This document shows, piece after piece, positions 305 through 7,504 of a stretch of 7,671 bases of DNA. The notes below the pieces were generated by a model. It worked only from the letters and a program-made list of their open reading frames with translations. It ran no database searches and was not told the DNA's origin. The position numbers were made by a program, and so were the translations under genes. Origin of the DNA: Acidaminobacter sp. (GTDB taxonomy: Bacteria; Bacillota_A; Clostridia; Peptostreptococcales; Acidaminobacteraceae); the NCBI GenBank assembly GCA_009881125.1, contig WXFH01000013.1, positions 1-7,671 of the forward strand. The letters are read 5' to 3'. The first letter of the stretch is position 1. Each line of letters begins with the position of its first letter.

Positions 305-314
305 TCTAAAAGTG

Positions 315-320
315 TATAAT
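315..320 (+). promoter_or_regulatory. Possible -10 box for the polyferredoxin-selenoprotein operon
   Basis: A perfect TATAAT lies about 34 bases before the chosen start at 354. The best -35 candidates are weak (TTGAAA at 288-293 is 21 bases away), so a regulator may be needed or the match may be chance. If real, the more upstream GTG at 312 would lie inside the promoter and could not be the start. Confidence 0.35.
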
Positions 321-353
321 GGAATCAGCGGGATGGAGATGAGGTGGACGTTT

Positions 354-1421
354 ATGCCCAACAAGACGGATAAAGACTTAGCCCTGCTTAAAACAATTCT
401 TTGGATCTACATCATTTTATGCTTTGTCCTTGCAGGCTTAAACTACGGTTATGTCAAATCTGCACCTGAAGCTGTAGGCAAAGCCATCACGTGGTTTTGG
501 CACTTCTATGAAAACTGGATTAAAACCGCATTTATCATTGCTGCGAGTATTCTAACCTTAAGGATCACAAAGCAATCCAAACGGACGACCATGAGAAGAA
601 AGAATTTGAGGGGCTTCATAATTGCAGCCCTTTTTGTACATATCCTGTCGCCCTTACTCATAAATAATAATGAACTCTACTTCTTCGCCATGCCGCTGCC
701 TTGGACCACAACGCCTCTACAGCTGTTGGTGGAGGGATCCTCCTTTTACACCAGTCGGTTTCCACTATGGGGCGCGGCTGGGATCACAGCAGCTATGATT
801 TTTTATGCTGTAATCAGCGCGATTATATTGATAGGCACGTTACTATTCGGAAGGCGCTGGCAGTGTTCGACTGTATGCCTCTTTAACGGATTTGCCTCTG
901 AAGTCTTTGCGCCTGCGTTTCCTTTGATCGGTAAAAAGAAAAAAATTCAGCCTAAAACCACAAGTCTCCTCATGCTCCTTAAGTGGGCCATGTTCGCGCT
1001 TGCCATATTTTTTACAGGGTATTGGATTTTATTGTTGAGCGGTGTTCAGACCCTCGAAAACTATAATCTGATAGGCAAAATAGAAATCTACAAATATTTG
1101 AGCGCAGAACTGCTCATGATGATGTTCTTCTGGATCGTATTTGTTGGAAGAGGGTATTGTTACTATTGTCCTCTGGGCACGGTGCTGGGTTTCATAAGTA
1201 AACTTTCCGGGCAGAAAATCATTACAAACCTCACAAAGTGTATTAACTGCGGGGCGTGCAATTCAGCATGCCCTATGGCGATAGATCTTCAAAGCAAAGC
1301 CATGAAAGGGGAACCGGTGACCTCATTAAGATGTGTGGGCTGCGGTCATTGTGTGGACGCTTGTAAAACGAAAAACCTTTCTTACACGACAACCTTTCTG
1401 AGTAAGCTTTCAAGCAAATAG
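354..1421 (+). CDS. Membrane-bound NapH-like polyferredoxin (4Fe-4S binding protein)
   Basis: A 355-residue integral membrane iron-sulfur protein. About six hydrophobic segments can be seen (roughly residues 13-35, 55-75, 86-105, 140-165, 207-230, 250-268). Two short cysteine motifs at membrane boundaries, C171-x3-C175 (CSTVC) and C269-x2-C272-P (CYYCP), are typical of the NapH/NosR/CcoG-type Fer4_5 region. The C-terminus has two ferredoxin motifs: C296/C299/C302/C306-P and C327/C330/C333/C337. Proteins of this family pass electrons between membrane donors and soluble or periplasmic enzymes. The ATG at 354 is chosen because GAGGTGG (341-347) precedes it at 6 bases; an in-frame GTG at 312 has no such site. 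The selenoprotein starts 20 bases after the stop, so the two genes are almost certainly co-transcribed. No FMN-binding domain is seen, so it is not a full NosR or RdhC. The exact partner is unknown. Confidence 0.85.
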   Translation: MPNKTDKDLALLKTILWIYIILCFVLAGLNYGYVKSAPEAVGKAITWFWHFYENWIKTAFIIAASILTLRITKQSKRTTMRRKNLRGFIIAALFVHILSPLLINNNELYFFAMPLPWTTTPLQLLVEGSSFYTSRFPLWGAAGITAAMIFYAVISAIILIGTLLFGRRWQCSTVCLFNGFASEVFAPAFPLIGKKKKIQPKTTSLLMLLKWAMFALAIFFTGYWILLLSGVQTLENYNLIGKIEIYKYLSAELLMMMFFWIVFVGRGYCYYCPLGTVLGFISKLSGQKIITNLTKCINCGACNSACPMAIDLQSKAMKGEPVTSLRCVGCGHCVDACKTKNLSYTTTFLSKLSSK

Positions 1422-1441
1422 TATGATAAGGAGATGACACC

Positions 1442-1906
1442 ATGGCAAGTGTTGAATTGACCAGAGAAGCGCCGGATTTCGAAATAGAAGACTACAAAGG
1501 TGATCTTTTCAAACTTTCCGATCTCAAAGGGAAGAGCAATGTCCTGATCGTACTGAACAGAGGCTTTGTCTGAGCGTTCTGCCAAAAACATATGATGCAG
1601 TTGCGTCAAAACTTTGAAAAATTCGTAGAAAAAAATACGAAAATTGTCGTGATCGGACCTGAAAACGCTAAGGCTTTCGAGAGTTATTGGGAGGCGCATG
1701 ATCTGAAGTTTATTGGGATTCCTGATGACAAGTTCTCCGTCCTGAAATTATACGGCCAGAAGGTCAACTTGTTCAAACTCGGCAGAATGCCGGCCCAGAT
1801 GCTGGTGGATCAAGCCGGGATCCTAAGATATGTCCACTACGGGCACTCCATGAGTGATATCCCTGAGACCGCTGAAATGCTAGAGCTTATAGATTCGCTG
1901 AAATAG
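1442..1906 (+). CDS. Peroxiredoxin-like selenoprotein (AhpC/TSA superfamily) with U-x-x-C active site, UGA at 1571-1573 read as selenocysteine
   Basis: A 154-residue thioredoxin-fold protein read through one in-frame TGA. The N-terminus has the peroxiredoxin signature APDFEIEDYKGDLFKLSDLKG (residues 10-30, in two blocks), then the strand VLIVLNRGFV (34-43). The TGA is codon 44, exactly where relatives with a RGxWCPxC motif have the catalytic cysteine, giving U44-A-F-C47. The frame stays open and conserved-looking to TAG at 1906, including GRMPAQMLVDQAG with the cis-proline region. U44 and C47 are the only redox residues, suggesting a selenenylsulfide cycle that reduces peroxides or disulfides. 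The start is fixed by AAGGAG (1428-1433), 8 bases upstream. It follows the polyferredoxin by 20 bases. A standard gene caller would give a false ORF starting at 1592. A nonsense-mutated pseudogene is the alternative, but the position of the TGA argues strongly against it. Confidence 0.88.
1571..1604 (+). promoter_or_regulatory. Candidate bacterial SECIS element after the UGA
   Basis: Immediately 3' of the UGA the mRNA can fold: GCG (1574-1576) with UGC (1602-1604, one G-U pair), a small U-rich internal loop, then CUGC (1579-1582) with GCAG (1597-1600), closing a 14-base loop. A guanine in the loop (1594) is 21 bases beyond the UGA, within the spacing known for bacterial SECIS hairpins. The stem is short, and the fold was made by eye. 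Confidence 0.5.
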
Positions 1907-3227: not shown

Positions 3228-5504
3228 ATGAAGCCCGATCAGATCCTGATCAGCAACGCGAGAACGCACAACCTGAGAAGCATTTCCCTGGCGATTCCCA
3301 AAAACAAACTGGTCGTGTTTACCGGTGTGTCCGGATCCGGCAAATCCTCGCTGGTGTTTGACACGATCTACACCGAAGCCCAGCGCCAGCTGATAGAAAC
3401 CTTTTCCTCCTTCGCCCGGGAGAGAATGCCCAAGCTCACCCGGCCGGATGTGGAGGACATTCAAAACCTGTCCACGGCCATAGTCATAGATCAGAAGCGC
3501 ATGGGCACAACTATGAGGAGCACAGTGGGAACGGCGACAGAGCTCTATACCTATCTCCGGCTGCTGTTTTCCCGCTGCGGAGAACCCTTTATAGGTCCCT
3601 CTTTTGTCTTTGGCTTCAACCACCCAGCCGGCATGTGTCCCCAGTGTCACGGCCTCGGAAAAAGAATCAAAGTGGACGTGACCCAGCTTCTGGATCTGGA
3701 CAAAACCATTCGGGAAGGCGGGATTACCCATCCGGATCACAAGGTTGGGGGCTGGAACTGGCGGGAGATGGTGGCCATTGACCTGTTTGACGTGGACAAA
3801 AAACTGGGAGAATTCTCTGAAGAGGAGATCCAAAAGCTCCTGTTTGCCAAGGACATTCCAATCAGCAGGGCTCACGGCGCTGGAACCTATTCAAAGACGT
3901 TTAATGGCGTTGCAGAGCGACTCGAACGGGATTATCTGAATAAAGCCCCTGAGGATCTGCCTGCGGCCAAGAAGGACGCCTATGAAAAGTACTTCATTTA
4001 TATGGATTGTGACGCTTGCCACGGCTCACGCCTTAATGAACAAGCACGAAGCGTTGTGGTGAACGGCAGGACCATCCCGGATCTGATCCATCTGGAGTTT
4101 ACGACACTCCTGGAATTCCTCGAAACCATTGACAATCCACTCGCTCAGCCTATACTCAAGAAGATGAAGCAGATTCTGTCCCATCTGATTGAGATTGGCG
4201 TCGGGTACCTGTCGCTGAACCGGTCAGTGGCGACACTGTCAGGCGGGGAAAGCCAGAGGGTCAAGATGGCCAGACAGCTTGACTGCGATCTCGTGGATCT
4301 GATGTACATTTTGGACGAGCCGTCCATAGGACTGCACCCCAGAGATACGGACAAACTGGTGGGCATGCTGGTCAAGCTGAGGGATAAGGGCAACAGTGTA
4401 TTTTTCGTGGAGCATGATCCGGACATGATCCGGATGGCGGAGTATGCCATAGATATTGGTCCTAAAGCAGGGTCACATGGCGGGGAAGTTGTCTACGCCG
4501 GGCCGGTGGCGGGTCTCTTTACCTCCGGAGGTCTGACCGGGGAATATTTAAGGAATCGGATGGTCTATAAGGGCGAAAGAAAACTGCACCAAGGTTACAT
4601 AGAAATAAACAATGCCTCGCTTCACAATCTCAAAAACGTCTCGACAAAAATTCCTAAAGGAGTTCTAACCTGTATCACAGGGGTCGCGGGATCAGGGAAG
4701 AGCAGCCTGATTTTGGAGACCTTTCTCAACCAGTACAAGGATGCGGTTGTCATAGACCAGTCCGCTATAGGGAAAAACTCGCGATCGAATCCGGCGACTT
4801 ATACCGGGATCTTCGACCTGATTCGAAAGGAATTCGCTCAGGGCTCAAAATCGAATCCCTCTCTTTTCAGCTTCAACTCGACAGGTGCCTGTCCTAAATG
4901 CAATGGTCTGGGTGTCATCAGCTATGAAATGCATTTTATGGACGCCGTCAAGGTCACCTGCGAGGAGTGTCAGGGCAAGCGCTACACGGATGAGGTGCTG
5001 TCGCTGAAATATAAGAATAAAAGTATCCACGACGTCCTGATTACCACTATTCAAGATCTGAGAGGTTTCTTTGAGCATCCGGAGATCAATAGAAAACTGG
5101 GTGTTCTATGCGAGGTAGGCCTTGGATATCTGGAACTTGGACAGCCCCTCAGTACTCTGTCCGGCGGGGAAGCCCAGCGGATCAAGCTGGCTTCAGAGCT
5201 TCAGAAAAGCGGCAACATCTATGTCATGGATGAGCCGACCACCGGTCTGCACATGGCGGATATTGAAAGGCTGCTCGCTATAATCAAGCATTTGGTGGAC
5301 CATGACAACACGGTCATTGTCATAGAGCACAATCTGGACGTGATTGGCCACGCTGACTGGATCATTGATCTGGGGCCTGAAGGCGGGGTTAGAGGCGGCG
5401 AGATCATTTTTGAAGGGACGCCTGAGGATTTGATGGCATGTCAGAGAAGCTATACAGGACACTATCTGAAGAAAATGCAGCAGTCTGAGCTGGCGCTGGG
5501 CTGA
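3228..5504 (+). CDS. Short UvrA-like ABC ATPase lacking the UvrB-binding domain
   Basis: A 758-residue protein with two ABC ATPase halves. Half one has Walker A G33-VSGSGKS-40, an [16 protein letters not shown] block, zinc pair C137/C140 (CPQC), second pair C261/C264 (CDAC), signature LSGGESQR (337-344) and Walker B ILDEP (D363/E364). Half two has Walker A 485-492 (GVAGSGKS), zinc pairs C555/C558 and C578/C581, signature LSGGEAQR (644-651) and Walker B VMDEP (D668/E669). All ATPase motifs look intact. True UvrA is about 940 residues. Here [10 protein letters not shown] runs almost directly into [13 protein letters not shown], so the first UvrA zinc module and the UvrB-binding insertion are absent. 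It belongs with UvrA2/DrrC-type proteins, which bind DNA without recruiting UvrB and in some producers protect against DNA-binding drugs. That role is inference here. GAAGGGGG (3211-3218) precedes the start by 9 bases. Codon use is richer in G and C than in the flanking genes. Confidence 0.88.
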
Positions 5505-6736: not shown

Positions 6737-6772
6737 GATCTTAACGTATGAAATCAAGAAGAGGTGAGTCCT

Positions 6773-7504
6773 TTGAACTATCAAGTACTCCTAAACAAAC
6801 TAGAAAGCTACAATCAAATTAAGGCTTCGCTTCCAGATGCAAGCATCAAATCCTATACCCAAGCCTTTGAACTTGAATATACTCACAACTCAACAGCCAT
6901 CGAAGGCAATACACTCACACTTCTGGAAACTAAAGTTGTACTTGAAGATGGCTTATCTGTAGGCGGCAAACCATTAAATGAAATCTATGAAATAATCAAT
7001 CACAATAATGCCTATCAATATTTGAAGAAATGGATCTCTGATGGCCTGGCATTAAACGAGAATATCATAAAGGATCTCCATTCTATACTGATGGACCGCA
7101 TTATGATTGGCGGTATTTATAGAAATGTGGATGTCTATATTTCAGGCGCGGCGCATACACCGCCATCTCCTTCTGATATGTATAACCAGATTAAAAATTT
7201 CTACTTGGAGCTTACTGAGCGAAAATTTGAAAGTGTCATTGAACTGGCAGCTTGGACACACGCTGAATTTGTCAGGATTCACCCTTTTGTAGATGGTAAC
7301 GGCAGAACTTCCAGACTCATTATGAACTATCAGCTTATGGCAAATGGATTTTTGCCAGTCTCAATAAAAAAGGAGACGCGACTTGAGTATTTCAACGCAC
7401 TTGAAGCCTATGCAGTCGAAAAGGACTTAAGCCAATTTGCAGATATGATTGCAGTGCTTGAAGAAGAGCAGTTGGACAAATATTTAGGCATGAGAATGAA
7501 ATGA
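6773..7504 (+). CDS. Fic family protein (probable AMP transferase, inhibitory helix at the N-terminus)
   Basis: A 243-residue Fic-domain protein. The catalytic motif is complete: H170-PFVDGNGRTSR-181, with the catalytic histidine, the acidic residue at 174, and the phosphate-binding GNGR. Upstream lies the flap IYRNVDVYISGAAHTPPSP. The N-terminus has S40-TAI-E44-G-N, matching the (S/T)xxxE(G/N) inhibitory motif of class II Fic proteins, where the glutamate blocks productive ATP binding. The expected activity is transfer of AMP (or another nucleotide moiety) to a hydroxyl side chain of a target protein; the target is unknown. The start is taken as TTG 6773, because GAGGTGA (6761-6767) lies 5 bases before it. 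The GTG at 6764 is part of that site and is an unlikely start. No separate antitoxin gene is visible. The gene is AT-rich compared with the uvrA-like gene, which may mean a different origin. Confidence 0.9.
   Translation: MNYQVLLNKLESYNQIKASLPDASIKSYTQAFELEYTHNSTAIEGNTLTLLETKVVLEDGLSVGGKPLNEIYEIINHNNAYQYLKKWISDGLALNENIIKDLHSILMDRIMIGGIYRNVDVYISGAAHTPPSPSDMYNQIKNFYLELTERKFESVIELAAWTHAEFVRIHPFVDGNGRTSRLIMNYQLMANGFLPVSIKKETRLEYFNALEAYAVEKDLSQFADMIAVLEEEQLDKYLGMRMK

Follow-up and report, generated by a model that had tools for sequence, protein, structure and literature searches.

In the stretch of Acidaminobacter sp. DNA analysed here (7,671 nucleotides of contig WXFH01000013.1, hereafter the window), the gene at positions 1442 to 1906 most probably encodes a full-length selenoprotein of 154 residues with a peroxiredoxin/ResA thioredoxin-like fold, in which UGA codon 44 would be read as selenocysteine (Sec, U) by means of a selenocysteine insertion sequence (SECIS) hairpin. 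From the sequence evidence we put the probability of this reading at about 0.95. It is supported by the conservation of the TGA, a covarying downstream hairpin, the Sec machinery of the two closest genomes and rare Cys forms at position 44, and on these grounds the local recoding of TGA as Sec proposed by an earlier sequence-only reading is upheld. The features of the gene are as follows.

1428..1441, + strand: leader with a Shine-Dalgarno-like AAGGAG just 5' of the ATG (by-eye reading)
1442..1906, + strand: predicted selenoprotein gene, peroxiredoxin-fold UxxC thiol:disulfide oxidoreductase, 154 amino acids (aa) with Sec44 (frame, Pfam homology, TGA conservation, predicted fold)
1571..1573, + strand: in-frame TGA, predicted Sec codon 44 (frame reading, TGA conservation)
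1580..1582, + strand: TGC, Cys47, predicted partner of Sec44 in UxxC (Cys conservation)
1593..1608, + strand: predicted bacterial SECIS hairpin, 6-bp stem, AGUU loop at 1599-1602 starting 25 nt after the TGA (folding, covariation)

Reading frame and conservation of the in-frame TGA

The frame consists of an ATG start, 43 codons, a single TGA, 110 sense codons and a TAG stop. The Pfam family AhpC-TSA (PF00578) matched residues 8-131 (E = 4.9e-18; 65.7 bits against a cut-off of 26) and Redoxin matched residues 9-144 (E = 3.6e-13); as both matches cover residues on either side of the TGA, the homology spans it, and the peroxiredoxin-type frame of 154 residues around one TGA was indeed as first read from the letters. 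Two genes of the window, encoding a UvrA-like ATPase and a Fic protein, terminate with TGA, which is therefore no general sense codon here, as had also been claimed.

Relatives were collected from proteins (5182 matches, of which the best 120 were examined) and from genome contigs (337 relatives, of which the best 80 were kept, giving 81 sequences with the window). The kept loci are from Clostridia and Chloroflexota, together with records that carry other group labels. All 80 carry TGA at the same codon, and a Cys codon stands three codons past it in 81 of 81 sequences. The closest locus, L001, belongs to the sister metagenome-assembled genome (MAG) Acidaminobacter sp. MAG4, and the window is 92.3% identical to it over 4.8 kb. 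The ratio of nonsynonymous to synonymous substitution rates (dN/dS) against L001 was 0.07 upstream of the TGA (codons 1-43) and 0.04 downstream of it, indicating purifying selection on both sides; against L002 it was 0.03 before the TGA, where synonymous sites are saturated, and 0.13 after it. With the codon common to the 80 loci and a low dN/dS against L001, the TGA is conserved beyond chance. The search for homologues with Cys or Sec at position 44, suggested with the original proposal, thus returned TGA in every kept locus as well as a few Cys forms, and an unrelated residue at position 44 combined with downstream decay was not borne out in the relatives tested.

A further 39 loci from the phylum and Chloroflexota samples described below, 7 of which (L107-L110, L113, L116, L118) lie in genomes already represented among the 80, were read in the same way and had TGA in 37 cases and TGC in 2. 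The two copies with no stop read CPFC. Genome G067 carries one of them as a second copy, and the other is all that G637 has of the gene; G637 is absent from the list of genomes with a tRNA-Sec hit. No confirmed relative was found in the viral contigs searched and no similar DNA in the plasmids searched.

The predicted SECIS hairpin

According to a review (PMC13188914), a bacterial SECIS has a loop of 3-9 nt, a stem of 4-16 bp, a G at the first or second loop position and a distance of 16-37 nt from the UGA, with an energy of at most -7.5 kcal/mol. The window hairpin agrees with the rules for loop (4 nt, AGUU), stem (6 bp), G and distance (25 nt). Since only a 26-nt piece folded better than its shuffles, window-only folding was dropped as a test of significance and covariation was used instead, on 74 distinct rows compared with 500 shuffles that leave relatedness in. 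Paired cells made up 98.4% (92.4% in shuffles), 52 cells were changed on both sides (9.5 in shuffles) and the covariation score was 0.327 (0.195 in shuffles), none of these values being reached by any of the 500 shuffles. Versions of the hairpin slid along the sequence had at most 4 doubly changed cells.

The codons under the hairpin are strongly restricted. Leu54 is TTG in 81 of 81 sequences (18% elsewhere in these genes), Gln53 is CAG in 81 of 81 (59%) and Ala52 is GCG in 46 of 46 (19%). Residues 52 and 55 covary, with Arg55 accompanying Ala52 in 46 of 46 cases and His55 accompanying Met52 in 29 of 33 (the others being 3 Arg and 1 Leu). These residue changes run parallel to the pairing codons, although shared ancestry may contribute.

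Structure prediction for the 37 further TGA loci puts the loop at the usual place in 24 (23 AGUU, 1 GGUU) and about three codons earlier in 12 (9 AGUUG, 1 AGUUA, 2 GUU). The hairpin did not form in the remaining one, L115, which has another stop. It is likewise missing from the predicted folds of both TGC copies (L137 and L145). The loci with the shifted loop (L123-L125, L127, L129-L136) are all from the Chloroflexota sample and have the GUU core over different protein positions. Locus L141, which also has a TAA within the match, has the stem GGCAC-AGUU-GUGCC, in which a pair change accompanies Cys for Arg at the counterpart of window residue 55 (LAQLCQD), a case of an amino-acid change tied to the RNA. 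An Rfam scan of the window gave no selenium-related match, its only three matches being under the gathering scores.

Selenocysteine machinery in carrier genomes

The genomes of both Acidaminobacter relatives contain selA, selB, selC and selD, with a tRNA-Sec of anticodon TCA, SelA at 631 bits, SelB at 383 and 381 bits, and a SelD gene that itself has an in-frame TGA. The search for these four genes, proposed along with the selenoprotein, was therefore positive for the two relatives, while the window's own genome lies outside the data. A tRNA-Sec hit was obtained for 46 of 50 and 21 of 30 genomes carrying the 80 TGA loci; of the 50 in which SelB was sought, 44 had a match exceeding its cut-off.

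The family of G002 was covered by 41 genomes; nine of these hold a strong match, each with TGA and one with TAA as well. The gene occurs in 10 of 299 genomes of the phylum (E of 1e-30 or better), always with TGA and twice also with TAG; all 10 carriers have tRNA-Sec, compared with 186 of the 289 others (Fisher p = 0.017). In 251 Chloroflexota genomes there were 29 carriers, 28 of them with a TGA copy, and tRNA-Sec was present in 27 of these 28 and in 161 of 223 others (p = 0.004). Both comparisons are supportive rather than decisive, because kinship is uncorrected and tRNA-Sec is common (196 of 299 and 188 of 251 genomes).

Active site and class of the protein

The site reads NRGFV-U-AFC. When the protein is aligned by profile with M. 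tuberculosis AhpE, with no gap at the site, Arg40 falls on the Pro, U44 on the Thr and C47 on the Cys of PxxxTxxC. In comparison with ResA, U44 is the counterpart of the first Cys in the CxxC. The sequence-only reading had placed the TGA exactly at the catalytic Cys of an RGxWCPxC motif; the Sec does lie in a redox motif, but no Trp precedes it, and the alignment puts U44 on the peroxiredoxin Thr and C47 on the peroxidatic Cys. The predicted fold is that of the peroxiredoxins, with Sec44 immediately ahead of the first active-site helix and Cys47 a turn into it.

A true Sec peroxiredoxin, in which Sec44 would be peroxidatic in the standard mechanism, would belong to the same Pfam family and share the predicted fold. 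According to the review, such enzymes carry Sec at the Cys of PxxxTxxC (PMC13188914), a position held by Cys47 in the window protein, which has its Sec at the Thr. Neither PxxxTxxC nor PxxxTxxU is present in the window protein, and Pro117, invariant among the relatives, lies in what we take to be the thioredoxin cis-Pro loop; we thus consider this assignment unlikely. The predicted site is a thioredoxin/ResA-style UxxC and not the TxxU of true Sec peroxiredoxins. ResA is membrane-tethered and has Cys at this site; by eye, the window protein has no N-terminal signal, unlike ResA, and its fold score is slightly higher with Bcp/AhpE than with ResA. The best NCBIfam match, the SelL-related redox protein NF040769 (73 bits, residues 9-105), is below its curated cut-off of 120 bits.

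Peroxiredoxin-like UxxC thiol:disulfide oxidoreductase selenoproteins are a described class (PMC1088965; PMC13188914, a review that names PF00578), in line with the earlier statement that such selenoproteins were known. The window protein shares the AhpC-TSA domain and the UxxC with them, a likeness at the level of domain and motif. The gene is a further member of this known class. The Ala form had been singled out as unusual, and UAFC is a minor spelling, present in 2 of 81 sequences, the window and its sister MAG. Among the papers searched, none links 'UPFC' with selenocysteine.

Database entries and other readings of the TGA

At position 44 of the best 120 proteins and the window (n = 121), 71 have Trp, 4 Cys and 1 Arg, 44 are without the position and the remaining one is the window. 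Most of the 44 are proteins of 102-105 aa that begin just past the site, such as P0084 (103 aa, named peroxiredoxin Q/BCP, from A. hydrogenoformans, a relative with UPFC), which is identical to the post-TGA end of L002. Termination at the TGA and an internal restart, giving a separate 104-aa protein, would account for these entries, and an ATG at 1592 does open a 104-aa frame matching their first Met. This is highly improbable, as by eye no Shine-Dalgarno-like stretch precedes 1592, residues 1-43 are themselves under purifying selection and the restart piece would be devoid of the UxxC site.

A TGA decoded as Trp, through genetic code 4 or a suppressor, could be read from the Trp entries, such as those spelled WPFC. 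P0004, however, is from residue 2 on the translation of L010 with W for the TGA, and the same rendering of L006 and L014 gives sequences 98% like P0003 and P0009, respectively; at least these entries therefore look like code-4 translations, and the Trp at position 44 was no longer taken at face value once they had matched TGA loci. In the two tRNA-Trp genes found (within the stretches L083 and L084 rather than in whole genomes) the anticodon is CCA, as against TCA in tRNA-Sec, two window genes stop at TGA, the hairpin covaries and Cys forms occur at position 44, so that Trp decoding has next to no chance of being correct. In the protein databases the family thus stands with Trp where Sec belongs (the WPFC entries P0002-P0016 and others), which is at least in part the product of translating contigs with code 4. 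A pseudogene, in which an ordinary redox gene acquired the TGA by nonsense mutation, would fit the standard code and the many database proteins that hold the post-TGA part only, but it is scarcely credible given the TGA shared by all kept loci from several bacterial groups, the low downstream dN/dS in a frame otherwise intact and the covarying hairpin.

Several observations weigh against a full-length selenoprotein. The hairpin alone has an energy of -6.9 kcal/mol, short of the published limit, though the 50 nt from the UGA reach -8.0. In window-only folding, the 26-nt piece gave z = -2.41, a weak result with 6 of 200 shuffles as good, and pieces of 39, 50 and 65 nt (z = -0.66, -0.29 and 0.11) showed no excess over shuffles. 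Among the weaker covariation measures, the 2 pairs with a double change were reached by 16 of 500 shuffles and the 5 further pair types, being uninformative, by 500 of 500. The sel genes were examined in the genomes of relatives only; tRNA-Sec gave no hit in 13 of these 80 genomes and SelB stayed under its cut-off in 6 of 50, perhaps owing to incomplete assemblies, and the TGA carrier G646 is without a listed tRNA-Sec. A second stop lies within the match in L022 (codon 112) and L024 (codon 151) among the 80 loci, and in G245, G348 and G595. Finally, the substrate, the reductant and the order of attack are all inferred.

Proposed mechanism and genomic neighbourhood

For the selenoprotein, SelB and Sec-tRNA(Sec) would decode UGA codon 44, directed by the AGUU hairpin. 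U44 would likely attack and C47 resolve, in the thioredoxin sense: the selenolate of Sec44 may attack a disulfide or an (organic) peroxide, Cys47 would resolve the intermediate through a selenenylsulfide, and recycling may fall to a thiol or a ferredoxin-type reductant. OhrR-type regulators adjoin the gene in some relatives, which would favour a role in organic-peroxide stress.

The other genes of the window include a DegV gene and the following.

312..1421, + strand: membrane 4Fe-4S protein, NapH-like, under the NCBIfam cut-offs, with its end 20 nt upstream of the Sec gene
2037-2993: iron-sulphur protein resembling reductive dehalogenase/QueG, under both curated cut-offs
3228-5504: UvrA-like ATPase, 758 aa, between the iron-sulphur gene and the DegV gene
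6764-7504: Fic gene

It is possible that the NapH-like gene and the Sec gene are co-transcribed, and the NapH-like 4Fe-4S protein is a possible electron donor. Within the flanks examined, a NapH-like neighbour was found in 1 of 80 loci (L001). A DegV-family gene lies downstream on the same strand in 18 of 80 loci (L031, L032, L036 and others), mostly Chloroflexota, and several of these have a small hydrophobic protein encoded between the two genes. Gene context was considered as a universal clue and failed, the NapH-like neighbour being that rare within the flanks examined and neighbours differing between groups.

Implications for the family

Taken together, the family may tentatively be seen as a distinct unnamed group, nearly always a selenoprotein, that would reduce disulfides or organic peroxides and be controlled in some hosts by OhrR-type regulators. 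In the same proposal the SECIS would govern the protein sequence, residues 52 and 55 being coupled by codon pairing (Ala52 going with Arg55 and Met52 mostly with His55), and the hairpin of some Chloroflexota would lie about three codons further upstream, with the GUU loop kept. The family offers a clean case for how an intragenic RNA recoding signal restricts the usable amino acids.

As the database entries examined are pieces of about 103 aa from past the site or carry Trp for Sec, the catalytic residue is lost from the records. Correct calls matter for selenoprotein counts and for the understanding of redox and peroxide defence in anaerobes. The class is already known, but its members are often misrecorded in the databases, and what appears here as a stop in the middle of a gene most likely belongs to one whole protein.
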